Shown: positions 9,233-36,774 of the stretch, piece after piece | Numbering within the stretch: the first letter of the stretch is position 1 | Layout of the letters: each line of letters starts with the position of its first letter | Assembly: GCA_002869335.1 (NCBI GenBank) | Contig: PKTE01000070.1 | Location: 1-38,242, forward strand | Source: Salinivirgaceae bacterium | GTDB taxonomy: Bacteria > Bacteroidota > Bacteroidia > Bacteroidales > Salinivirgaceae | Length of the DNA stretch: 38,242 nucleotides | Reading direction: 5' to 3' | Notes under the pieces: model-generated | Seen by the model: the letters and a program-made list of their open reading frames with translations, nothing else | The model's database searches: none | What the model was told of the DNA's origin: nothing | Made by a program: the position numbers and the translations under genes

Positions 9233-10666
9233 TTAATCATTTCCAGTAAATACATGAAAGAATCCTTTCTTTTCAAACATCCTATCATCTAAACCCCAAG
9301 CCCTTATCCAGTAATAATAAACACCGGAACCAACTTTCTGACCATTATATCTGCCATCCCAACCTTCTTCCGCAGTCCAGTTTGAACCAGTATGAGAAAA
9401 AACTCTCATTCCATAACGATTATAGATGTAGACTTCTATTTTTTTCATTGAGACGGTTCTTAATTTCTCACCATCTTCCGAGGGCACATCATAATCATCA
9501 TAGTTCCACTTTTCGATTTTTGTAAAAAAGAAACGGTAATCCTTATTTCCAGGAACTACCACATCAGGTAGCTCTCCAATAAATGATTTATAAATTGTAA
9601 TATAGAGCGGTTTTGTAATAGAATCAACACAGCTCCTCTCCTCACCGTTTTCGATAAATATAGGACCTTCAGCCCTAAGTTTTACATCATAATATCCAGG
9701 ATACTTATATGTAACAGGATCTAGCGGCTCAAAATAATCAGAAGCTCTAAGTACAGTATCTGCTCCTTTTTTTACTCTTATAGTATCGTTGTAAAATGTC
9801 CATTGATAAAACTCCGCATTTTCTGTTAAGTTTCTAAAAGTTAAATCAACAGGGCCTGAAAACATTAGGTCTTCAGGCGCGTAGGCAGCTGAATCACCCT
9901 CTGCAACTTCAAAGTCTACTTTCACTGCAATGGCTTGATAATAGAGGGTATCAGACTTACTATGCCCTAAACTATCTTCCACATAAACAGTAAACATATA
10001 ATTATCATACTCTATTGGTGGCGTTGAAAAATATTGATTTGCCTGATTTATAGGCGTGGTTAAAGAGTCAAACTCCAAAGAATCAAGTTCGATATATGAT
10101 TGCGAGAGAGGTTCGAGGTAGTAATCTTGCCACCTCTGTACATAGCCATTATCAATTGTTAGATTAAGTGAAACAGTATCCGGATTATAATAATAAAAAT
10201 CTACGCCACCATCGATACCATATATAGCCAATTCGTCGCAGGATTTTTCGTAATAAGGATCTACTACCAGATTATTAAAATATGCCCAAAAAGTAATAAT
10301 TGTATCATAGGTGCCATCTGTACTTTCTAATTCTACTTTATAGCCTCCATCAAATATTGTACTGTATGAAAAAAAAGAGGTATCCGCATGTTCAGACAAT
10401 AACGTGGATATCAATGTGTCCTGATCAACATCGCGGTCGATAGCATACCATTTAATAGTACCTGATTTGCCAAATGGAAAATAAGCTTCTAAATGAAGCG
10501 TATCACTAAAGCCATTTGGTCCGGGGCCAAATACGACATAAATACTATCGTGTCCCACACTTCTATTGTATTTGACTGGTATAACCGTATCTGCATTATG
10601 CGATATTTGCCCATACCCACTCAAAATCAGCACTATCCCTATTAGCGTAAAAAATAACTTCCGCAT
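9233..10666 (-). CDS. Secreted protein with gliding-motility-associated C-terminal / T9SS type B sorting domain
   Basis: Signal peptide; C-terminus IYNRYGMRVFSHTGSNWTAEEGWDGRYNGQKVGSGVYYYWI. Confidence 0.88.
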   Translation of the reverse strand: MRKLFFTLIGIVLILSGYGQISHNADTVIPVKYNRSVGHDSIYVVFGPGPNGFSDTLHLEAYFPFGKSGTIKWYAIDRDVDQDTLISTLLSEHADTSFFSYSTIFDGGYKVELESTDGTYDTIITFWAYFNNLVVDPYYEKSCDELAIYGIDGGVDFYYYNPDTVSLNLTIDNGYVQRWQDYYLEPLSQSYIELDSLEFDSLTTPINQANQYFSTPPIEYDNYMFTVYVEDSLGHSKSDTLYYQAIAVKVDFEVAEGDSAAYAPEDLMFSGPVDLTFRNLTENAEFYQWTFYNDTIRVKKGADTVLRASDYFEPLDPVTYKYPGYYDVKLRAEGPIFIENGEERSCVDSITKPLYITIYKSFIGELPDVVVPGNKDYRFFFTKIEKWNYDDYDVPSEDGEKLRTVSMKKIEVYIYNRYGMRVFSHTGSNWTAEEGWDGRYNGQKVGSGVYYYWIRAWGLDDRMFEKKGFFHVFTGND

Positions 10667-21820: not shown

Positions 21821-24151
21821 CTAGCTTAAGAACTTTTTCATTTTATTAAGCAACAAATAAGAAGAAATCGGTTTGGTTACATAATCATCGCAACCAGCCT
21901 CTTTTGCTTTATGAGCATCATCTGCCATTGCAAATGCTGTTTGAGCAATAATTGGAATATCTGGAGCGAGTTTTTTGATATAGCGAGTGGAATCGTAGCC
22001 ATTTAATTCAGGCAAGCGTATATCCATTAATATAATATCAACATTGCGAGCCTTAACAATTTCAATAGCCTCGTATCCTGTTTTTGCCCTATGAACATTG
22101 AGCCTGTTTCTCTTTAAAAGTGATGCCAAATAAATAAACGAAGTATCCTCATCTTCTACAATCAACACATCCATTCCAACGAATTGCTGCCACTCCTTAT
22201 ATTCTTCCTTACGCTCAATCACCTTACCTCCAGACTCATATGGCAACATAAATGTGAATACCGAACCTTCTCCTTCAATAGAATCAACGCTAATTTCACC
22301 GCCTAACAGATCAATCAATCCTTTGGTAACTGTAAGTCCCAACCCGGTTCCACGATATACTTTATCAGCAGTATTTTCGAGTCTTCTAAAGCGTTCAAAA
22401 ATTTGCTTTTGAGCTAATTCTGGAATACCTATTCCGGTATCCTTAATTGTAAAAGTTATTTTCTTGTTTTTAACTGTAGTATCGATACTAATTTTTCCTT
22501 CGTTTGTAAATTTCAGCGCATTGGAAATTAAATTTTGGAAAATCTGCATCAACCTGCTTTTATCTGTAAAAATCCAACCTTGTTGACTATCTGCCAGCCC
22601 ATTAAACTCAAGTTGAATAGGTTTGGCACTCATATCAATCTCTTTCAGATACATACGTTCAAGGTCTTTCAGTAATTCATTCAAATTAAAGTTAACCTTA
22701 TAAATTTTTAGCACCTTGGCTTCAATCTTTGATATGTCAATAATATCATCAATAAGCTGTAGTAATTGATGGCTATTTTTTTCGATTAAGCTGAAATACT
22801 CCTTTTTTTCATCTTGTGGAATATCTTCCTGAAGCAAAAGCTCAGCAAAACCGATCACTCCGTTCATTGGTGTTCGGATTTCATGGGACATATTTGCTAA
22901 AAATGCTGATTTTAATCTGTCTGATTCTTCAGCAAGCATTTTAGCCTTAACTAATTCTCTTTCTGCCTGTTTCCGCGCGGTAACTTCTCGCACAATAGAT
23001 AATGCAGTATTACCGACTCCCGGAACTAATCTTGACTCAAAAAATGATTGTTTTCCATGTAAATTCAATTGATACTCATGAATTACATGCTGTCTTGTAC
23101 GTATAACCTGCTTTACTTTTTCCAAATTTTCCGCTGCAATATTTGGAGGAAGAACTTCCATTGCATTCTTTCCTAGAAAATCTTCTGGTTCATAAATTAA
23201 GTTTTTGTATTGCCCTTTAGGTGCATGGAAGTCAATGAAATTACCGTTTTTATCCTGTATAAACATCATGTCAGGAATAGCACTTAACATAGCGTTTTTT
23301 TCTTCCATTTTAAAAAGCCTCTCATTTTCGAGTTTCCGAATTTGAGTTACATCCTGTATAATCCCGAAAATTAAAGTAGGCTTTCCATCCTCCTCAATTA
23401 ACTCACAATTTATGATATGGTAACATTTTTCATCGTTTACACCTATGGTATATTCATATTTAAACCTTTTCTCTGCAAAGATCTGCTCTCGCATTGCCTT
23501 GCTAATAAGAGCTTTATCATTATAATTCAAGAAACCCAAATATTTGCGCATTGAGATACCTTCATTTTTAGGAATCCCTAACAAATCAAATATTTGATCT
23601 GAGAAAAATGTTGCATCATTTTCTAAGTTCCATTCAAAATATGCTAACCTGGCAATTTGTTGAGCACTATTCAATTTGTACTCGCTAGCCTCTATCTTAC
23701 GCAGAATATTCTTACGATTAGTAACATCTGAAACCCAAAAAATTAGATTCTGCGACCCAATTGTTTTTACTTTTGATATATGCCCTTCAAAATATTTTAA
23801 TTGATTATCTATTTCAAGTGCATATTCAATTGTAGTTTGCAATTCAGTGTTTAATACTCGATTGATTCCATCCATTGCAATTTTTGCAACTTCTTTAGGT
23901 AAAACATCTGAGAATTTTTTACCTAAAAGTTCACTTCGTTGCTTGTATAACAATGAATCTTTATCGGTAAGAATATCGAGATAAACTCCATCCTGATCAA
24001 TTACGAAAACAATATCTGGTAAAGAATGAATTAAAGCTTCGAGATATTCAATATGTTCTAATGATTTTTCACTTTTCAGAATAGAACGGAGTCTTTCATT
24101 CTCATCTTCTAGTGCTTTTATCTTCTTTTTATAATCATCTTCCTGGCTCAT
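21821..24151 (-). CDS. PAS-domain hybrid histidine kinase with C-terminal receiver
   Basis: HisKA FLANMSHEIRTPMNGVIGF, HATPase DTGIGIP/GTGLGLT, REC DIILMDIRLPELNG. Confidence 0.95.
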   Translation of the reverse strand: MSQEDDYKKKIKALEDENERLRSILKSEKSLEHIEYLEALIHSLPDIVFVIDQDGVYLDILTDKDSLLYKQRSELLGKKFSDVLPKEVAKIAMDGINRVLNTELQTTIEYALEIDNQLKYFEGHISKVKTIGSQNLIFWVSDVTNRKNILRKIEASEYKLNSAQQIARLAYFEWNLENDATFFSDQIFDLLGIPKNEGISMRKYLGFLNYNDKALISKAMREQIFAEKRFKYEYTIGVNDEKCYHIINCELIEEDGKPTLIFGIIQDVTQIRKLENERLFKMEEKNAMLSAIPDMMFIQDKNGNFIDFHAPKGQYKNLIYEPEDFLGKNAMEVLPPNIAAENLEKVKQVIRTRQHVIHEYQLNLHGKQSFFESRLVPGVGNTALSIVREVTARKQAERELVKAKMLAEESDRLKSAFLANMSHEIRTPMNGVIGFAELLLQEDIPQDEKKEYFSLIEKNSHQLLQLIDDIIDISKIEAKVLKIYKVNFNLNELLKDLERMYLKEIDMSAKPIQLEFNGLADSQQGWIFTDKSRLMQIFQNLISNALKFTNEGKISIDTTVKNKKITFTIKDTGIGIPELAQKQIFERFRRLENTADKVYRGTGLGLTVTKGLIDLLGGEISVDSIEGEGSVFTFMLPYESGGKVIERKEEYKEWQQFVGMDVLIVEDEDTSFIYLASLLKRNRLNVHRAKTGYEAIEIVKARNVDIILMDIRLPELNGYDSTRYIKKLAPDIPIIAQTAFAMADDAHKAKEAGCDDYVTKPISSYLLLNKMKKFLS

Positions 24152-24160
24152 AATAACCTC

Positions 24161-25246
24161 CTACTTCTCTTTATCACTCATATAAGCAGGTAATGTAAAA
24201 GTAAAAGTACTTCCTTCATTCAACTTACTTTCAACATATAGGTCGCCATTGTTTCTTTTAGCAAATTCTTTACATAAAATAAGTCCAAGGCCTGTACCCT
24301 CCTCGTTTTCCGTACCTAATTTTGAATTACTATAGCCTATTTTAAAAAGCTTTTCTATTTCCTCTTCAGTTATTCCAATGCCGTTATCTTTGATGCTAAT
24401 TTGAACATACTTTTCATCAATTGATGTACCTATACTAATTGTACCTTCTTTATGAGTAAATTTAATTGCATTAGAAAGAATATTTCGAATCATTGAATTT
24501 ACCATATCAGTATCAGCCCATGCTTCTACAGACTCATCAATGTCTATTACAATTTCAATTTGCTTAAGTTCAGCACTTGCTTTGGCTAGAGCGATATTCT
24601 CCATCATTAACCTATGAATATTAACTTTTCGAGGTTTAAATGATAAACGGCCTGTCTGAGCACGAGACCATTGTAATAAGTTTTCTAAGAGTGAGTGGAG
24701 CTGTTTCGATGATCTGTAAATTAAATTGATAAACTCTTGTTTCTCATCATCTGTAAACGATTGCAGGTCTTGAGATAATACTTCAGTAAGTCCAAGAAAA
24801 CCCGCAATGGGGTTTTTAAGATCATGAGCAATAATTGAAAAGAATTTATCTTTACTGGAGTTAAGTTCGTCGAGTTGCTTTCTTTGTTTTTCAATTTCTT
24901 TCTTTTGGTTATTGATGATATTGTATGCCTTGCGCAAATCAACCATTTTACCAAAAAGTTCTATTGTACGTTGACGAAATTTATTATTAGTACGCTCTAA
25001 AGCTGTTCTTTTGTTATTTATCTCTTCATTTTTCTTTTCAAGCTCCTCATTCTGAATACTTATAATCTTTTTTGCTTTTTTCAGATCAATCATTTTACCG
25101 AACAACTCTATAGTGCGCTGTCTCGATTTCTGATGTTGCAACTCTACCTTATCCCTCTGACCTTCAAGCTCTTCATTCTTATGCTGAATTTCTTTGATCA
25201 GATCAGTAAGTCTCTTTCGCTCGGAATTCTTAAATTCTTCTTCCAT
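24161..25246 (-). CDS. Soluble histidine kinase with duplicated N-terminal coiled-coil
   Basis: FFSIIAHDLKNPIAGFLG, NAIKFTH, DNGIGI, GTGLGL; ATG at 25246 preferred over TTG at 25252. Confidence 0.92.
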   Translation of the reverse strand: MEEEFKNSERKRLTDLIKEIQHKNEELEGQRDKVELQHQKSRQRTIELFGKMIDLKKAKKIISIQNEELEKKNEEINNKRTALERTNNKFRQRTIELFGKMVDLRKAYNIINNQKKEIEKQRKQLDELNSSKDKFFSIIAHDLKNPIAGFLGLTEVLSQDLQSFTDDEKQEFINLIYRSSKQLHSLLENLLQWSRAQTGRLSFKPRKVNIHRLMMENIALAKASAELKQIEIVIDIDESVEAWADTDMVNSMIRNILSNAIKFTHKEGTISIGTSIDEKYVQISIKDNGIGITEEEIEKLFKIGYSNSKLGTENEEGTGLGLILCKEFAKRNNGDLYVESKLNEGSTFTFTLPAYMSDKEK

Positions 25247-25446
25247 CCACAAAATGATTTTTGCAAAATTACAAAAATATGCTTTCTATTAACATTAATT
25301 ACAACTCTTTCAGAATTTATTTAAGCTTTTGGGTTTCAACAATTATTTCTTATTCAAATCATTTAATTGTTAAATATGTTTGTCTCAAATCCATTCATGC
25401 GTATATTCGCACACTTAATTCAAATTCTTGATCAAGATACAATTTT

Positions 25447-26193
25447 ATGCATTTAATTAAAAGACTTTTATTTAAAATACTGGGTTTACAAAAATATCTA
25501 CAAACCATAAGAAACATTTTCTTCTTTAGCTATAATAACGGTTTTCTTAAAAATAAAGAAGAATACCTTGTTCATTATTACATCAAAAACCTTATTAAAA
25601 AAGGTGATAATATTATTGACATTGGTGCAAACCTTGGTTATTACAGCAAAATATTTGCTCAACTGACAGGAAAATCAGGGCAAGTATATTCTGTAGAACC
25701 AGTTGAAACGTTTAGAAAAGTGCTCGAAAGTAGTATTAAAAAGCACGATAACGTAAAAGTGTTACCTTATGCTTTAGGAGTAGATGACGGAAAAGAAATA
25801 GATATGGGATTGCCCTTGACAAGTAAATATCTTAGTCATGGAAGAACAAAAATAGTTGACAGCCAGCCTAATGATAACTATGCCTTTAAATTTAAGGCTA
25901 CCATGAAGCATCCCAATCTATTATTTAGTTCGATAAAAAAGATCGATTACATTAAATGTGATATCGAAGGTTATGAGGTAGTTGTTATTCCTGCCATGAA
26001 AGAGTTAATAGAAAAGCATACGCCCACAATTCAGATTGAGACTGATGGTGACAATAGAAAAGTAATAATGGATTTACTTTTAACGCTAGGCTACAAGGTA
26101 TTTTATGTAAGTCGAAAAGGTCTGGAACCTTACGAATTATCTCATTCTGGATTTACGGGAGACTTAATTTTTATACATCAGGATAAATTATAG
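25447..26193 (+). CDS. FkbM family methyltransferase
   Basis: IIDIGANLGYYSKIFAQLTGKSGQVYSVEPV, IDYIKCDIEGYE. Confidence 0.87.
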   Translation: MHLIKRLLFKILGLQKYLQTIRNIFFFSYNNGFLKNKEEYLVHYYIKNLIKKGDNIIDIGANLGYYSKIFAQLTGKSGQVYSVEPVETFRKVLESSIKKHDNVKVLPYALGVDDGKEIDMGLPLTSKYLSHGRTKIVDSQPNDNYAFKFKATMKHPNLLFSSIKKIDYIKCDIEGYEVVVIPAMKELIEKHTPTIQIETDGDNRKVIMDLLLTLGYKVFYVSRKGLEPYELSHSGFTGDLIFIHQDKL

Positions 26194-26197
26194 AAAT

Positions 26198-26224
26198 AAA
26201 GGCCGGGAAAATTACCCGGCCTTT
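26198..26224. terminator. Bidirectional intrinsic terminator
   Basis: AAAGGCCGGG-aaaatta-CCCGGCCTTT. Confidence 0.9.
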
Positions 26225-26231
26225 GATTTAT

Positions 26232-26399
26232 TTAGGAGTGACCACCAATCACAATTCTCATTATTTTGATGTTTAACACTGTAAACCTCCATATTTGCCA
26301 AATAATACTTTTTCTAAAAAACCGGGTAGCCGGTCCAGGAATGGTTGTAAATGCACCATTATCGTATGGATCTATTTCTTTATTTCTACGTATTTTCAT
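26232..26399 (-). CDS. Small ORF, 55 aa, uncharacterised basic protein
   Basis: MKIRRNKEIDPYDNGAFTTIPGPATRFFRKSIIWQIWRFTVLNIKIMRIVIGGHS*; 23 nt after the SQR-like stop, 7 nt before the terminator. Confidence 0.65.
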   Translation of the reverse strand: MKIRRNKEIDPYDNGAFTTIPGPATRFFRKSIIWQIWRFTVLNIKIMRIVIGGHS

Positions 26400-26422
26400 C
26401 TTTCTAAATTTTAATGTATTGA

Positions 26423-27883
26423 CTACTCAGGAATTAAATGCCATAAAAACTTCGCTTTTGCTTTATATAAAAACATATAGTGCAAAACTAATTTCACCCA
26501 GTGCCCTGCAAGACCTGCCTCACCTACTGTATATCTTATATCTCTGCCCCAATCAGGGTATTTTTCAATATCCTGTACAATTGGGAAAACAGTCATTGTA
26601 GCTGCAAGCCCGCTTCTAAAACCGTAACCGGCAGAAACAACACATGCCGCACCCATTCTGGCCATTGAAGCTTTATGCTTATGATTTTCTGTATTTTTCT
26701 TAATTCGATCAGCAATATTTTCTGCAACAATCTTTCCCATAACACCCGAAGGCATTCCTGTCCGCGGTGGCGTTGGAAAAATTTCAGTACCATTTTTGCT
26801 TTTCATTGGTTTTGAAATACCATGAGGTGGAGCAAATGCAATTCCTGGTGCATATAAATTTTTATACTCTGGATTTTGGTAAATAGAAGGCCAATCTGCT
26901 CCTGACCATTCCTCGTAAGGTTTAGCAGTATAATCAGCATCAACTTTCATAAATCCATTCGGCGCAAATACTTTAGCTGTAACATCCGCTCCATTTTTAT
27001 CGAAGGTTGGTAGATTAATACCACTAAACGAAGGTATAAGCATTGCATAATCGTAGTTCAATTCATGCTTTTCTCCATCAAGTGTTTCGAAGTAAACAGC
27101 TTTTTCATCGACTTTCTGCACTCCTGCGCGTTTTATCCAACGGATACCATATTCAGCCAAAATAGATTCGGTAAATACTTTTGTTGATGTGATATATCCG
27201 TTCCTCTTCACATAAGCGCCACCCATACCAAAATCACCTACCTCATACTCATTTGTGATCCAAACAATATCAGCTAATTTGTTCAGTTTCCGTTTATTAA
27301 TTTCGTGTGCAATATTTAATGCATACTCAAATGCGGCACCCTGACAAGTAGCCTTTGGATGTCCTGTACCTATAACGATGGTTTGTTTTTCACCATTCTT
27401 CAGTTTTTCAAAAACCTTCTTAAGGTTTTCCCAGGCTTCTTCGGCATGAGGATAAGTGCAAACAGACTGCACCAATCCAGCTTCAGGACCTAACCCAGGA
27501 GTAGTGTCAAATCGAAGTCTCGGACCTGTTGCATTTACAAGGTAATCGTATTCAATAGTTACCTCCTGTCCGGCTTTTTCTTTGCTTGTATATTTAGCTT
27601 TTAGAAAGGGTTTACTGTTTTGCGCATCACCTTCAGGATATAAAGACACTGCTTTGGCCTGATGGTATTCGATTTTTTGTTTTTTGTAAACCGGAGCTAA
27701 ATCAAAGATTACTTTTTTTGATTTCATTCTACCAATGCCTACCCAAATATTGGAAGGAACCCATTGATAATTTTTATTAGGGCTGACAACAACTACATTA
27801 TGTTTCTTCCCTAGTTTTCGTTTAAGAGTAAGAGCAGCGGTATGTCCGGAGATACCTGCACCTAAAACAACTACTTGTGCCAT
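26423..27883 (-). CDS. FAD/NAD(P)-dependent oxidoreductase, sulfide:quinone oxidoreductase-like
   Basis: VVVLGAGISGHTAALTLKRKLG, DYLVNATGPRLRFD, Cys in QSVCTYP, KATCQGA and GAACVVS. Confidence 0.8.
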   Translation of the reverse strand: MAQVVVLGAGISGHTAALTLKRKLGKKHNVVVVSPNKNYQWVPSNIWVGIGRMKSKKVIFDLAPVYKKQKIEYHQAKAVSLYPEGDAQNSKPFLKAKYTSKEKAGQEVTIEYDYLVNATGPRLRFDTTPGLGPEAGLVQSVCTYPHAEEAWENLKKVFEKLKNGEKQTIVIGTGHPKATCQGAAFEYALNIAHEINKRKLNKLADIVWITNEYEVGDFGMGGAYVKRNGYITSTKVFTESILAEYGIRWIKRAGVQKVDEKAVYFETLDGEKHELNYDYAMLIPSFSGINLPTFDKNGADVTAKVFAPNGFMKVDADYTAKPYEEWSGADWPSIYQNPEYKNLYAPGIAFAPPHGISKPMKSKNGTEIFPTPPRTGMPSGVMGKIVAENIADRIKKNTENHKHKASMARMGAACVVSAGYGFRSGLAATMTVFPIVQDIEKYPDWGRDIRYTVGEAGLAGHWVKLVLHYMFLYKAKAKFLWHLIPE

Positions 27884-28037: not shown

Positions 28038-29165
28038 CTAATTTAGATCTTTGACCAATCTGAATCCATTGGCATTATTAGTAATTAGAGGTGAACTAAA
28101 ATCACGATATGAAACACGACAGAATACGGCATCGCCATTCCAAATGCCACCTCTTAAAACTTTTTCAACACCATTGTCCGGACCTGTAGGGTTGTTCTCT
28201 GGTGAAACCTCATAATAAGCCTCATCATACCAGTCATTACACCATTCCCACACATTTCCGCTCATATCATGAATACCCAACTCGTTTGCTCTTCGGGTAC
28301 CTACAGCATGAGCTGAGTTTTCTGCATTTTCAACATACCATGCAACGGCTCCAATATCATTTCCACCTGCAAATATTGTAGAATCAGTTTCGTTCCCACC
28401 ACGGGCAGCAAACTCCCATTCCGCTTCTGTTGGTAAACGGCCACCCTGATGTTCGCAATATAATTTTGCACCATACCAACTAACCTCAACAACAGGAAAG
28501 TTTTCTTTCCCATGAACCGGCACATATTGGCCTGCTTGATATTTAATTTGGATGTTAGAAGATTGTAAGTCAATAATAGTTTCTCCTTGATAAACTCCCA
28601 TTGAGTCAATATCAATTTCATTTAAAAATTGTGCGAAATAGTAATTTGTTACTTCATGCTTAGAGATATAAAAAGAATCAACTGCTACGCTGTGAATAGG
28701 CAATTCATGGCTGAAACAAGAATACATATTATTTGAAGCACAGCCCATATCATATATACCCCCTTCAACTAATATCATTTCCATGGGCGTAATTTCTATT
28801 TCGGTATAGATCTCAACTGTAACCTGAGCTCTGGAACTCTTTTGATCAGTATCAACTGCTTCAGCTGTAAGTAAATATTGACCTTCTTCGATACCAATTG
28901 TGCTCCATACGTAACGATAAGGCGCTTCAGCATCTTCATTAATAAGATAATCGTCAATATAAAATTTTACTTTATACAGATTTCCATCGGGATCATCAGC
29001 CTCTGTAATGATAGTTACATTTTGCCCTTGCTCATAGGTTTGACCGTTATTCGGACTAGTAATTATAATGGATGGCTTAGAATTTCCGTCATCCTCATCA
29101 CCTGCACAAGCTCCAAGTAATAGAGCCATAGCAATAAAAAGCAGATAAAAGATATTTGTTTTCAT
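28038..29165 (-). CDS. Lipoprotein with Ig-like domain and SUMF1/formylglycine-generating-enzyme-like domain
   Basis: Lipobox LLGAC; EGGIYDMGC...EVSWYGAKLYCEHQGGRLPTEAEWEFAARGG...NVWEWCNDWY...NGFRLV. Confidence 0.9.
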   Translation of the reverse strand: MKTNIFYLLFIAMALLLGACAGDEDDGNSKPSIIITSPNNGQTYEQGQNVTIITEADDPDGNLYKVKFYIDDYLINEDAEAPYRYVWSTIGIEEGQYLLTAEAVDTDQKSSRAQVTVEIYTEIEITPMEMILVEGGIYDMGCASNNMYSCFSHELPIHSVAVDSFYISKHEVTNYYFAQFLNEIDIDSMGVYQGETIIDLQSSNIQIKYQAGQYVPVHGKENFPVVEVSWYGAKLYCEHQGGRLPTEAEWEFAARGGNETDSTIFAGGNDIGAVAWYVENAENSAHAVGTRRANELGIHDMSGNVWEWCNDWYDEAYYEVSPENNPTGPDNGVEKVLRGGIWNGDAVFCRVSYRDFSSPLITNNANGFRLVKDLN

Positions 29166-29285: not shown

Positions 29286-30677
29286 TTAAATATGAATCAC
29301 TTCATCATAAGCTGCAGCTGCAGCTTCCATAATTGCCTCAGACATGGTTGGGTGTGGATGAATTGCTTTAATCAACTCGTGACCGGTTGTTTCCAATTTT
29401 TTAGCAACAACTAATTCAGCAATCATTTCTGTTACATTTAACCCTACCATATGACCGCCTAGTAATTCACCATACTTGGCATCAAAGATAAGTTTAATGA
29501 AACCATCTTTGTTCCCTGCTGCTGATGCTTTACCTGATGCTGTGTAAGGGAATTTACCAACTTTTACTTCATAACCAGCTTCTTTAGCTTGCTTTTCTGT
29601 CATTCCAACTGAAGCAACTTCAGGAACCGTATAAGTAGCACCCGGAATATTATTATAGTCTATTGGTTGTGGATTTTCACCAGCCATTTTCTCAACGGCA
29701 CAAATTCCTTCGGCTGATGCTACGTGAGCCAAGGCAGGGCCATGCACAATATCACCAATGGCATATACTCCATCAACGTTTGTTTTATAGAATTCGTCAA
29801 CTTTCACTTTACCGTTTTCCAGCTCAATTCCCATTTCTTCAATCCCAATACCTTCAAGATTAGGAGTTATACCAACAGCTGAAAGCACTACATCTGCTTC
29901 ATGCTGCTCTTCTCCCTTTTTGGTTTTAATGGTTACCTTACATTTTTTACCTGAAGTGTCAACCTTTTCAACTGAAGAGTTAGTCATAACTTTCATACCT
30001 GCCTTTTTGAAAGTGCGAGCCATTTGCTTTGAAACTTCTTCATCCTCATTAGGTAAAATATTTGGCAAGAATTCAACTAATGTAACTTTAGTTCCAATAG
30101 TTGAATAGAAATATGCAAACTCACTTCCAATGGCACCTGATCCAACCACAATCATCGATTCCGGTTTTTTATCAAGGGTCATTGCCTTGCGATAGCCAAT
30201 AATCTTTTTACCATCTTGTTTAAGGTTAGGTAGCTCTTTTGAGCGAGCTCCAGTTGCCAACATTATATTTTTGGCTTCGTAGGTCTTTTTGTTGCCTTTC
30301 TCGTCAGATACTTCGACTTTTCCTTTGGAGACTATTTTACCGAAACCATTAATTACTTCAACTTTATTCTTTTTGAAAAGGAACTCTATTCCTTTACTCA
30401 TGTTTCCAGCTACTTCACGGCTGCGACCAACCATTCCTTCAAAATCTGCCTCCACGTCACCATTAATTTTCACACCGTAATCTGCAGCATGTTTCGTATA
30501 ATCAAAAACCTGTGCTGATTTTAAAAGCGACTTGGTTGGAATACATCCCCAGTTTAGGCAAATACCTCCTAGCTCAGCTTTTTCAATTACAGCAGTTTTC
30601 ATTCCTAATTGAGAAGCCCTGATTGCTGCCACATAACCACCAGGACCACTTCCTATAACTATTAAATCGTAACTCAT
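29286..30677 (-). CDS. lpdA: Dihydrolipoyl dehydrogenase
   Basis: 463 aa, GGICLNWGCIPTKSLL redox motif, HPHPTMSEAIMEAA. Confidence 0.96.
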   Translation of the reverse strand: MSYDLIVIGSGPGGYVAAIRASQLGMKTAVIEKAELGGICLNWGCIPTKSLLKSAQVFDYTKHAADYGVKINGDVEADFEGMVGRSREVAGNMSKGIEFLFKKNKVEVINGFGKIVSKGKVEVSDEKGNKKTYEAKNIMLATGARSKELPNLKQDGKKIIGYRKAMTLDKKPESMIVVGSGAIGSEFAYFYSTIGTKVTLVEFLPNILPNEDEEVSKQMARTFKKAGMKVMTNSSVEKVDTSGKKCKVTIKTKKGEEQHEADVVLSAVGITPNLEGIGIEEMGIELENGKVKVDEFYKTNVDGVYAIGDIVHGPALAHVASAEGICAVEKMAGENPQPIDYNNIPGATYTVPEVASVGMTEKQAKEAGYEVKVGKFPYTASGKASAAGNKDGFIKLIFDAKYGELLGGHMVGLNVTEMIAELVVAKKLETTGHELIKAIHPHPTMSEAIMEAAAAAYDEVIHI

Positions 30678-30689
30678 GATATTACTTTT

Positions 30690-31547
30690 CTATTGTTTAT
30701 TATTCAATTTAGATTTTACTGTTTTATGAACGCCAATTTTATTCATTACAAATAAAAGCATTCTGGCTACCAAAAACATAAAAAGTAATGCGAAAATTAT
30801 TGATGCTCCAGAAGGAACATCTATTTTAAATGAAATTAGCAGCCCGGCAAATATTCCTATGAAAGAGAGAACAACCGAGTATAACATAATGTTTTTATAG
30901 TTGTAACTATACATATTGACAATAGCCTGAGGTACTGTCAACAATGAAATTACAAGAATAATTCCGGCAACCTTGATACTAAAAACGATGGTTAAAGCAA
31001 CCAAAGTTGATGTAAATAATGACATTATTTCTACCGGGAGGTTATGTGTACGTGCATAACTCTGATCAAATGCTATGAACATTATAATTTTATGAAAAAG
31101 CATAAAAAATACAACTACCACAATAGATAATCCTGCAAGCAGATAGACATCCAGCGCTGTTACCGTTAAAATGCTTCCAAAAAGATATGTCATTAAGTTT
31201 GGTGTATAACCTGGAGTAATGTAAATAAATAAAACCCCCAGGGCCATTCCAGCTGACCACCAAATACCAATCAAACTATCATTACGCATAAATCTTTTAT
31301 TGGAAAAAAGATCAATGCCCACAGCTGAAAAAACGGCAAATGCTGCAGCGCCGAAAACAGGGTTAAAACCCAGATAATATGCTATTCCTATTCCTCCAAA
31401 TGATGCATGCGTAATACCACCACTTAAAAATACCATCCGACGCGAAACAATATACGTCCCGATAATTCCTGCAGAAATACTTGCAAATAATGCTGCCAAA
31501 ACGGTATTTGTGAAAAAATCATATTGAAAAAGCTCTCCCAAATTCAT
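30690..31547 (-). CDS. Zinc/manganese-type ABC transporter permease (ZnuB/MntB family)
   Basis: 285 aa, multi-TM, LSGGITHASFGGIGIAYYLG. Confidence 0.9.
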   Translation of the reverse strand: MNLGELFQYDFFTNTVLAALFASISAGIIGTYIVSRRMVFLSGGITHASFGGIGIAYYLGFNPVFGAAAFAVFSAVGIDLFSNKRFMRNDSLIGIWWSAGMALGVLFIYITPGYTPNLMTYLFGSILTVTALDVYLLAGLSIVVVVFFMLFHKIIMFIAFDQSYARTHNLPVEIMSLFTSTLVALTIVFSIKVAGIILVISLLTVPQAIVNMYSYNYKNIMLYSVVLSFIGIFAGLLISFKIDVPSGASIIFALLFMFLVARMLLFVMNKIGVHKTVKSKLNNKQ

Positions 31548-31559
31548 CTATCCAACTGT

Positions 31560-32330
31560 TTATTTATGATTATGTGTATGTACATGATTGGCTAATACGG
31601 TATGCGGTACTTTACCATGTGTAACTAATTGTATTGGGCAATTATATGTTTGTAATTGTTGTTCGGTAATAATATTACTTGCATGGTAATGAAGATCTTT
31701 ATTCACACAGGCAATTGTTTTAATATAGGTAGATATTATTCCCAGATCATGTGAAACCATTATAATGGCCATTTTCTCATTGAGGCGCTTGAGAAGGTCA
31801 TAGATTTCTCCTTCAGAAGCATAGTCAACATAAGTATCAGGCTCATCAAGTATTAGAAGCGCTGGATCAGAAACAATTGCTCTGGCCAACAATACTTTTT
31901 GTGTTTCACCACCCGACAAACTACCAATATGCTTTTGTGATAAATGACTCACTCCCATCTTTTCCAATGACTCACATGCCTTACGATAATCGTTATGTGA
32001 ATATCTTCCAAACAATCCTTTTTTATTCATAAGGCCACTCAATACCACATCACAAGCTTTCAATGGAAAGCGCTTATCAACATCATTATACTGAGGCAAA
32101 TACCCCATTTCAAAGTCTTTCCGATGTTTAATTACTTTCCCTGAAATGGGCTTTAACAATCCCAAAATAACTTTCACCAATGTTGTTTTTCCACCCCCAT
32201 TGGGACCAATTACTCCAATAAAATCGTCTTCTGTAACAGTAATATTAACATTATTGAGTACAACTTTTCCATCGTACGCTACATTTAAATCCCGAAGTTC
32301 TATAAGATTTGAATTCATAACTCTATTCAA
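31560..32330 (-). CDS. Metal ABC transporter ATP-binding protein (ZnuC family)
   Basis: GPNGGGKTTLVKVILG, LSGGETQKVLLARAI; His-rich C-terminus NHVHTHNHK. Confidence 0.92.
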   Translation of the reverse strand: MNRVMNSNLIELRDLNVAYDGKVVLNNVNITVTEDDFIGVIGPNGGGKTTLVKVILGLLKPISGKVIKHRKDFEMGYLPQYNDVDKRFPLKACDVVLSGLMNKKGLFGRYSHNDYRKACESLEKMGVSHLSQKHIGSLSGGETQKVLLARAIVSDPALLILDEPDTYVDYASEGEIYDLLKRLNEKMAIIMVSHDLGIISTYIKTIACVNKDLHYHASNIITEQQLQTYNCPIQLVTHGKVPHTVLANHVHTHNHK

Positions 32331-33225
32331 CCAGTGATTTTTGGATTTGTTCAGCCATATAAATCATGTTATCCGGCCATTGATATGCCAAAGGATCTAT
32401 TTTAACAACTTTTGCTCCTAACTCTTTGGCAATAGCTTTCGCCTTGTCCTCGGGAAATTGCTTTTGTATAAAAATTGTCTTAATCCCAAGCTTCTTGCTT
32501 TTATTAATCAGGTCAATCATATACTTCCCACTAGGCTCTTTTCCCTCATATTCGAGGGGCAACTGTTCTAACCCATAATCTCTTGCAAAATAACTCATTG
32601 CAGGATGATAAATCATGTAAGTTTTTCGCTCAACATTATGGAACATTCCCATTATTTTTTTATCTGTATCAACTAATACCACTTTCAACTTCTCATAATT
32701 ATCAGTAAAATACTTTGCGCTGTCTGGCATGAGATTGACAAGAGCATTTTTAATATTTTCTATTTGCACTTGCATTTGCGATGCAGAAACCCATATGTGA
32801 GGATCGGTTCCAAAATGATTATGATCGTGTTTATGCTCGTGTGAATGATGATCATGAGAATGATCAGCTTCGATAAAATCAACCCCCTGAGATTGATCAA
32901 ATACTTGCATTGTTTGATTGGCATTTTGTATTCTTTCCATCCAGGCCTTTTCAAATCCGATATGTCCAATTCTGAAGTAAGCAATTGCTGATGAAAGCTC
33001 CCTCAATTGCATAGGACTGGGCTCGAATGTGGCCGGACTGGCACCTGAAGGCAATAAATCTTTTACTATAAAAACATCTCCTGCAATCTTTTCTACCATA
33101 TATTTTTGTGGTGCAATGCTTACATAAATTATTGGTTTTGTATTAACAACCTTAACATTATCTCCACATGAAAACATGGAAATCATTATTACAATGAAAA
33201 TCGTAAATCTTATCAACATTCTCAT
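32323..33225 (-). CDS. Metal ABC transporter substrate-binding protein (ZnuA family)
   Basis: DLLPSGASPATFEPSPMQLREL, His-rich loop DHSHDHHSHEHKHDHNHFGTDPHIW, lipobox FSC. Confidence 0.93.
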   Translation of the reverse strand: MRMLIRFTIFIVIMISMFSCGDNVKVVNTKPIIYVSIAPQKYMVEKIAGDVFIVKDLLPSGASPATFEPSPMQLRELSSAIAYFRIGHIGFEKAWMERIQNANQTMQVFDQSQGVDFIEADHSHDHHSHEHKHDHNHFGTDPHIWVSASQMQVQIENIKNALVNLMPDSAKYFTDNYEKLKVVLVDTDKKIMGMFHNVERKTYMIYHPAMSYFARDYGLEQLPLEYEGKEPSGKYMIDLINKSKKLGIKTIFIQKQFPEDKAKAIAKELGAKVVKIDPLAYQWPDNMIYMAEQIQKSLVE

Positions 33226-35355: not shown

Positions 35356-36768
35356 TTAAAGCTTTCCAGCGATTGATGTAATTAAGCTAAAATCAAATGT
35401 TAACCCAAAGTAGGGTGTAATTTCCCATTTGCTAACAGTTGGAATAGACATACCCTGTGGAACAAGATCTCCTTCGCTAAAGCCTGATTTAAGCAATCGA
35501 AACTCTGCAATGTTTATTCCTGCATTGATATGTATGACATCGAAAATTTTAATATTAGGACCTATATAAAAGTTTTTGAAAAGATTTTTTCCTCCAAAGC
35601 CCAAAAAGAAACCTACATCTGAAGTATATTTTGAATCTTCTTTGCCAAGATCTAGCAATCGAAATGTAGCACCTGTAACAAAATCAAATTCATAATCGCC
35701 GGCATTTTCATTGCTAATCACATACCTATCTGGATTATCCGAGCTTTCAGGAGCTAAAGTGTATAAAGGCGACCTAAAATTCCTAATTCCAATTCCCTGA
35801 ACTAGTCGTATTTTTTTCTTTTTATTTGTCAACTCATGAATGCGTTGCTTAAGGGCTTTTATTTCTTTGGTAGAGTATTCCAATTTCGTTTTTGATAGCA
35901 ACAATTCTTTCTCAGTTTTAGCAATATGATCTCGCAAAGTGTCAATCTTGATAATCTCGTTTTTACGATTATCTTTAATTTCATTTATTTCTTTATTTTT
36001 CGCTAGAATATCGGCTTTTCTTTCAGCAATGCTCTCTGCTAGCAATTCTATTTCCCTATCCTTTCCCGCAAGCTCACTATTTTTACTTTGTAGTTGGCCT
36101 TCAAGCTTGACGAGGTCAATTTTGGACTCTTGAATTGCATTAGTATAAATAAGCTCCTTCTCTTTAAATAACTGCTCTTTCTCTTTAATTTTCTCTATTT
36201 GCTGATCAAGCATTTGACTTTGTTGAGAAATTTTCTCTTCCAGATTTTTAATTTGCTCATTCAACTCTTTATTTAAAGGTTGAAGCAATTGATTTCTTTT
36301 ACGAAGACGTTCAGCCTTATCCACCATGCTATCAATAACAGCCTTGGCCTGCATGAGAGAATCTTTATATTTTACACATCGGTCTCGATAAACCAGGTTG
36401 AGTTTTATGAGTGAATCATAATTATGTAAAACAGAAGTTATAGAATCCAGAAGTAAAATATTTGTGCTAATTAATGAATCATTTTTTGATGATAAACTAT
36501 CGTTTTGCTCAACAACTTTAACAATTCTCTTAGTTAGTGTGTCATTTTTATTTGACCTAGGTTCCTGAACAATAGTATCTTTTGATTTTTTAATTTCTAA
36601 AAAACTTTCAACACTGATTGACTTAATAGAATCACTTTTTATTGTATCAGAAGTAACCAATAATGTATCTTTTGAAATATTGATAATACTATCTTGCTCA
36701 ATTGAAAACTGAGCTAAGGATACTAAGGAGAAAACCATTAAAAACAATACTAAAACTACTCTTGACAT
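35356..36768 (-). CDS. Secreted/outer-membrane protein with long coiled-coil and C-terminal barrel-like domain
   Basis: Signal peptide, about 200 aa of coiled-coil, C-terminal aromatic/Gly-rich strands; ATG 36768 preferred over GTG 36774. Confidence 0.65.
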   Translation of the reverse strand: MSRVVLVLFLMVFSLVSLAQFSIEQDSIINISKDTLLVTSDTIKSDSIKSISVESFLEIKKSKDTIVQEPRSNKNDTLTKRIVKVVEQNDSLSSKNDSLISTNILLLDSITSVLHNYDSLIKLNLVYRDRCVKYKDSLMQAKAVIDSMVDKAERLRKRNQLLQPLNKELNEQIKNLEEKISQQSQMLDQQIEKIKEKEQLFKEKELIYTNAIQESKIDLVKLEGQLQSKNSELAGKDREIELLAESIAERKADILAKNKEINEIKDNRKNEIIKIDTLRDHIAKTEKELLLSKTKLEYSTKEIKALKQRIHELTNKKKKIRLVQGIGIRNFRSPLYTLAPESSDNPDRYVISNENAGDYEFDFVTGATFRLLDLGKEDSKYTSDVGFFLGFGGKNLFKNFYIGPNIKIFDVIHINAGINIAEFRLLKSGFSEGDLVPQGMSIPTVSKWEITPYFGLTFDFSLITSIAGKL

Positions 36769-36774
36769 AAGCAC

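Follow-up and report, generated by a model that had tools for sequence, protein, structure and literature searches.

Sulfide:quinone reductase (SQR) is a main point at which electrons from sulfide enter quinone pools, and type IV SQRs, such as CT0117 of C. tepidum, serve sulfide-driven growth. Most SQRs possess two C-terminal amphipathic helices, and the C-terminal domain is responsible for membrane binding; in the A. ferrooxidans enzyme Tyr411 is located at the entrance of the quinone channel, while the type VI SQR remains membrane-bound without its C-terminal helix (PMC9666304). Expression of active SQR in foreign hosts has been difficult (PMC9666304). CT0117 is classified as a type IV SQR (SqrD) in PMC4584964, which gives its function by citing Chan 2009. 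Among other membrane enzymes, cytochrome bd oxidase has a small subunit, CydX, of 37 aa in E. coli (PMC4325964).

The window analyzed here, i.e. the whole stretch of 38,242 nucleotides (contig PKTE01000070.1 of a Salinivirgaceae bacterium), carries an SQR gene followed by a 55-aa gene of the kind that automatic annotation can miss. The features of this region are:

26423..27883 (-), SQR gene, 486 aa, with conserved Cys142, Cys180 and Cys414 (Pfam, phmmer, Foldseek, cysteine alignment)
26426..26521 (-), C-terminal helix 1 and protein end of the SQR (..GHWVKLVLHYMFLYKAKAKFLWHLIPE), with no second helix after it (alignment with control SQRs)
26400..26422 (-), A/T-rich gap of 23 nt from the SQR stop to the small-protein ATG (sequence)
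26232..26399 (-), small-protein gene, 55 aa, ATG start, stop codon included in the coordinates (ORF, homologues after SQR, dN/dS)
26244..26333 (-), predicted long helix of the small protein, residues 23-52, with conserved Q35, F39, L42, N43, K45 and V50 (AlphaFold2, per-position conservation)
26197..26225 (both strands), bidirectional terminator hairpin with 11 pairs, 7 of them GC, and T-tails on both strands (scan)
25447-26193 (+), convergent FkbM-type methyltransferase gene, having the terminator hairpin in common with the small gene

The earlier note had placed an unannotated 55-aa ORF at the end of an SQR-like operon, filling the gap between the SQR-like stop and a terminator. The ORF was found at 26232-26399 (-) with its sequence exactly as first quoted, and the spacing was as described, the ORF beginning 23 nt past the SQR stop and ending 6–7 nt from the hairpin. 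The gap contains no Shine-Dalgarno site, as is usual for Bacteroidota. The term operon holds for sqr and the small gene, which are joined, but not for any larger unit, as only these two genes are involved and the gene upstream is 154 nt away and unconserved. This upstream gene (28038-29165, -) is a lipoprotein-like ORF with Big_7 bacterial Ig and FGE-sulfatase domains, and was not conserved beside sqr in relatives. Elsewhere in the window, the following were observed: 1) two adjoining large signalling ORFs at 21821-25252 (-), 10 nt apart and histidine-kinase-like by eye, the longer with a receiver-like end and the smaller opening with a long coiled-coil and repeated RQRTIELFGKM motifs; 2) ABC-3 permease and ZnuA genes at 30690-33225 (-), forming a zinc/manganese uptake operon, adjoined by a dihydrolipoamide-dehydrogenase-like gene at 29286-30677; and 3) two long ORFs at 9233-10666 (-) and 35356-36774 (-), of 477 and 472 aa, with no Pfam match at E 1e-10.

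The 486-aa product matched Pfam Pyr_redox_2 (E 1e-11), having the flavoprotein fold with two dinucleotide-binding domains, and matched the A. ferrooxidans SQR in phmmer (E 9e-37); the top Foldseek matches were all to A. ferrooxidans SQR (E 2e-31, TM 0.69–0.76 by target). The catalytic-type cysteines Cys142, Cys180 and Cys414 were present in all aligned members and in the control SQRs. The ORF is predicted to encode an SQR performing sulfide-dependent quinone reduction. It shares 65% identity with the SQR at 112431-113885 of G433, a single-contig genome of 2,154,946 bp; this position fits what we take to be CT0117, the type IV SQR of C. tepidum TLS, and the sequence MGNYKFKAYYDEAYPPVPDKATLFWRKFIPWQLFRFFILNIKMIRIVVGGHS is presumably the C. 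tepidum copy of the small protein. The SQR class of the window is probably type IV (SqrD-like). A low-threshold search of G433 found no other SQR type, and CT1087 was therefore unusable as an internal control.

Sixty relatives from 56 genera were searched with the small protein and then with SQR. The small protein was found by sequence search in 12 of the 60, and a search of genome contigs gave nine more loci; wherever these loci had enough sequence, an SQR (62–71% identical) ended just before the small gene on the same strand. The SQR search yielded 13 positives, namely the same 12 genomes and G014 (SQR 56% identical), in which the ORF downstream of SQR, MSKRKVKIPWEERAYSEWNFGMYPTRFEQWKRRCLIIQFFRFIVLSMKFKKTASIND, is a divergent member of the small-protein family. 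The small gene was present in 13/13 genomes with the SQR and in 0/47 others (Fisher p = 2e-13). When an HMM of the small family was run over a 248-genome phylum sample, it matched 67 of the 67 SQR genomes and 1 of the 181 others; the sole match without SQR (G456, E 3e-4) has an internal stop and was taken as chance. Since one family (f131, inferred to be Chlorobiaceae) dominates this sample, its p value of 2e-60 overstates independence; by genus, SQR occurred in 15 and the small protein in 16 of 123. Co-occurrence with sqr, which the earlier note had named as a check, was thus practically complete whichever of the two genes was taken first.

A small ORF matching the HMM was located downstream of SQR on the same strand in 109 of 111 loci, at a distance of 1–251 nt (median about 42), and 66 distinct small proteins of 38–58 aa were obtained over all loci, the start being ambiguous at one (L019). 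The two misses (L070 and L092) are one contig, which ends 327 nt past the SQR, and in the genome concerned (G478) the small gene lies on a different contig. No fusion of the small protein to SQR was seen among the loci examined. The genes flanking the pair differ between loci (39 loci plus the window), which rules out a larger conserved operon. Thus, sqr and the small gene travel alone as a two-gene unit with unconserved neighbours, and the small gene is never separated from its SQR class, i.e. the partnership is obligate. Both genes are absent from two same-genus and three same-family genomes (G001-G005, compared with G000), suggesting that they were transferred, gained or lost as a pair. At one locus (L023 of G113), a small ORF of the Flavobacteriaceae type at about 1480-1640, still open, follows a fragment of an SQR C-terminus ending ..AKMRPFWWLIPE; the 1.5-kb flank contains no intact SQR, and the locus is probably decaying.

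The pair was found in Chlorobiaceae, Flavobacteriaceae, Campylobacterota, and Gamma- and Alphaproteobacteria. Outside the phylum, three classes are represented by plasmids of Sulfurovum mangrovi, Candidatus Thiodictyon syntrophicum and Marivivens sp., whose small proteins (WP_229937370.1, WP_172965425.1 and WP_197498098.1) are annotated only as 'hypothetical protein'. The full form of the family has about 52–55 aa (..P..T.F.RK...WQ..RF.VLN.K..RIV.GGHS), and a short Flavobacteriaceae form has 43–49 aa (..NPIIQFFKFIYLNLKILxIVAGGHGGTR). A mini version of 38 aa, MRPTSFDKFLMRCRIYQFWRFIVLNLKILKAVHHDKTA, follows a second SQR paralogue (477 aa, 39–43% identity) in Chlorobiaceae (L073-L081), and on these sequences the pairing would therefore have arisen before the two SQR groups diverged, or would have been kept in both. 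No such ORF was found downstream of three SQR relatives at 28–30% identity, and viral contigs yielded no relative. Profile and sequence searches of Pfam, NCBIfam and PDB gave no match for the small protein of the window, and 34 relatives gave one family match (E 0.027), taken as chance. The open-access literature searched contained no description of the small protein; an earlier one may exist in subscription papers.

In the true frame of the small gene, 124 gap-free pairs sharing 75% or more of their amino acids gave a pooled dN/dS of 0.095, with differences at the three codon positions of 0.117/0.040/0.345; a set of 15 disjoint pairs gave 0.053. Four of the five other frames had dN/dS above 1.6 and the fifth, a reverse frame, had 0.28. 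The amino-acid motif is retained although synonymous sites saturate, and a Shine-Dalgarno motif is present ahead of the start codon in copies from Proteobacteria and Campylobacterota and in some from Chlorobiota. The small gene is a protein-coding frame under strong purifying selection. Conservation of the frame in relatives, on which the earlier note had let its proposal depend, was borne out by homologues across several phyla with dN/dS of 0.05–0.10. For ribosome occupancy, its other condition, the purifying selection and the Shine-Dalgarno sites of those lineages that employ them serve as proxies. An accidental ORF, or conservation at the RNA or DNA level only, would agree with the shortness of the ORF, the lack of a Shine-Dalgarno site in the window copy and the lack of a family match, but the codon-level selection with its third-position bias, together with an Rfam search that gave no match, rules out a chance ORF or RNA element and leaves a non-gene reading with virtually no chance.

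The SQRs of this class end shortly after helix 1, with the sequence ..W.LIPE/D in 14/14 aligned sequences, whereas three control SQRs without the small gene have 25–30 residues more and a second amphipathic helix (..WFEKLGLKALGLQLV..-type). Tyr411 of the A. ferrooxidans SQR is 17 residues beyond Phe394 of helix 1; in the SQR of the window, the chain stops about 15 residues past the matching Phe. The small protein shares no detectable sequence similarity with the second helix of other SQRs, and the missing helix need not be replaced at all, since the type VI enzyme stays on the membrane without one.

For the small protein itself, AlphaFold2 gave a single helix (pLDDT 74–89 over residues 21-50), and an extended Pro/Tyr-rich N-terminus is predicted to precede one basic amphipathic helix of 30 residues. 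All 66 sequences have a net charge of +4 to +11. Maximal hydrophobic moments were 0.43–0.53. Q35 is invariant in the family, and a conserved His (H54) is close to the helix end. The conserved residues lean to one face of the helix, although not significantly (p = 0.076), with variable nonpolar residues opposite. Docking was modelled with AlphaFold2 on one locus (L013) that can be translated straight through, its two genes being in frame with each other; with 17 rows, the SQR body was modelled, but pLDDT was about 23–53 for the C-terminus of SQR and for the small protein, and their docking was not resolved.

The suggestion of the earlier note that the product may associate with the membrane and partner the quinone-reducing flavoprotein gains support from the conserved frame and the obligate co-occurrence; the partnership with the protein and the membrane association themselves we infer from the basic amphipathic helix and the missing SQR helix. 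We lean, by a little, towards the small protein being an obligate subunit of SQR. In other SQRs the second C-terminal amphipathic helix is part of the chain (in cis), and here the subunit would supply it in trans. On this reading it would bind SQR, be located at the membrane and make the quinone site complete. Its residues 23-52 would form a basic in-plane amphipathic helix, the conserved face of which (Q35, F39, L42, N43, I46 and V50) would bind the SQR C-terminal domain, with the variable nonpolar face sitting in the membrane. The flavoprotein would then be fixed on the membrane and the rim of the quinone channel completed, thereby allowing electrons from sulfide to reach quinone. Somewhat more tentatively, and at just under an even chance, the whole SQR class may consist of two subunits although studied so far as one chain, the helix for the membrane and the quinone rim being carried by an undescribed protein of 38–58 aa that ranges from Bacteroidota and green sulfur bacteria to Proteobacteria and Campylobacterota.

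Other roles would also agree with parts of these data. A dedicated assembly factor, stabilizer or activity regulator of the SQR class, binding transiently (e.g. pending FAD binding or the arrival of the enzyme at the membrane), would have the same genetics as a subunit, being obligate, adjacent and apparently co-transcribed; we consider it unlikely, as the gene order and the short gap suggest comparable expression of the two proteins, and it would be left unexplained why an enzyme lacking its second helix is matched by a partner made up of a helix alone. The division of the small protein into two separable parts, with an extended Pro/Tyr-rich N-terminus, which the 38-aa and Flavobacteriaceae forms lack, and a conserved helix with H54 near its end, could instead point to a tether whose helix faces a third protein, linking SQR to a quinone-using complex, a sulfur-globule or polysulfide site, or another SQR copy. 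However, no third partner recurs among the flanking genes, and the hosts include phototrophs and non-phototrophs with differing electron-transfer chains, which makes a tether improbable. A separate sulfur-handling peptide, i.e. a sulfane-sulfur acceptor or sensor merely sharing the operon, would suit the company of a sulfide-oxidizing enzyme, but is very improbable because the small protein was never found without its SQR class and only 21 of the 66 sequences contain a cysteine, the window copy having none; a sulfur carrier acting through cysteine is ruled out by this lack of conservation.

If the second subunit is needed, as the subunit reading would have it, this could help to explain the poor expression of active SQR in foreign hosts, and the gene set for heterologous sqr expression would change; the small gene would also be a simple marker of its SQR class. 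The locus would also add a clear case to the small subunits that annotation has left as 'hypothetical'.

Compared with the type IV SQR/SqrD (CT0117, PMC4584964), the window SQR is alike in its 65% identity via the G433 gene and in the three catalytic-type cysteines; none of the descriptions found speaks of a small companion gene. With the second C-terminal helix of type I SQRs (A. ferrooxidans and A. aeolicus) the small protein would share the amphipathic character, the place just beyond helix 1, and the proposed roles in membrane binding and at the quinone-channel entrance; that helix, however, is in cis, whereas the small protein is a chain of its own, has a conserved Q..RF..LN.K motif and shows no detectable homology to it. 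Overlooked small subunits of membrane redox enzymes are a known kind, and as far as can be told this instance, with the apparent splitting of SQR, is new. CydX likewise is a short protein of a membrane quinone-linked enzyme, hard to annotate and conserved with its enzyme, but it serves an integral quinol oxidase, whereas the small protein accompanies a monotopic flavoprotein and is predicted to be a basic amphipathic helix. The comparison is one of functional analogy and not of membership, and no sequence similarity is claimed; in function, the small protein may be comparable to a CydX-like subunit, as its short ORF is tied obligately to a single membrane redox enzyme.
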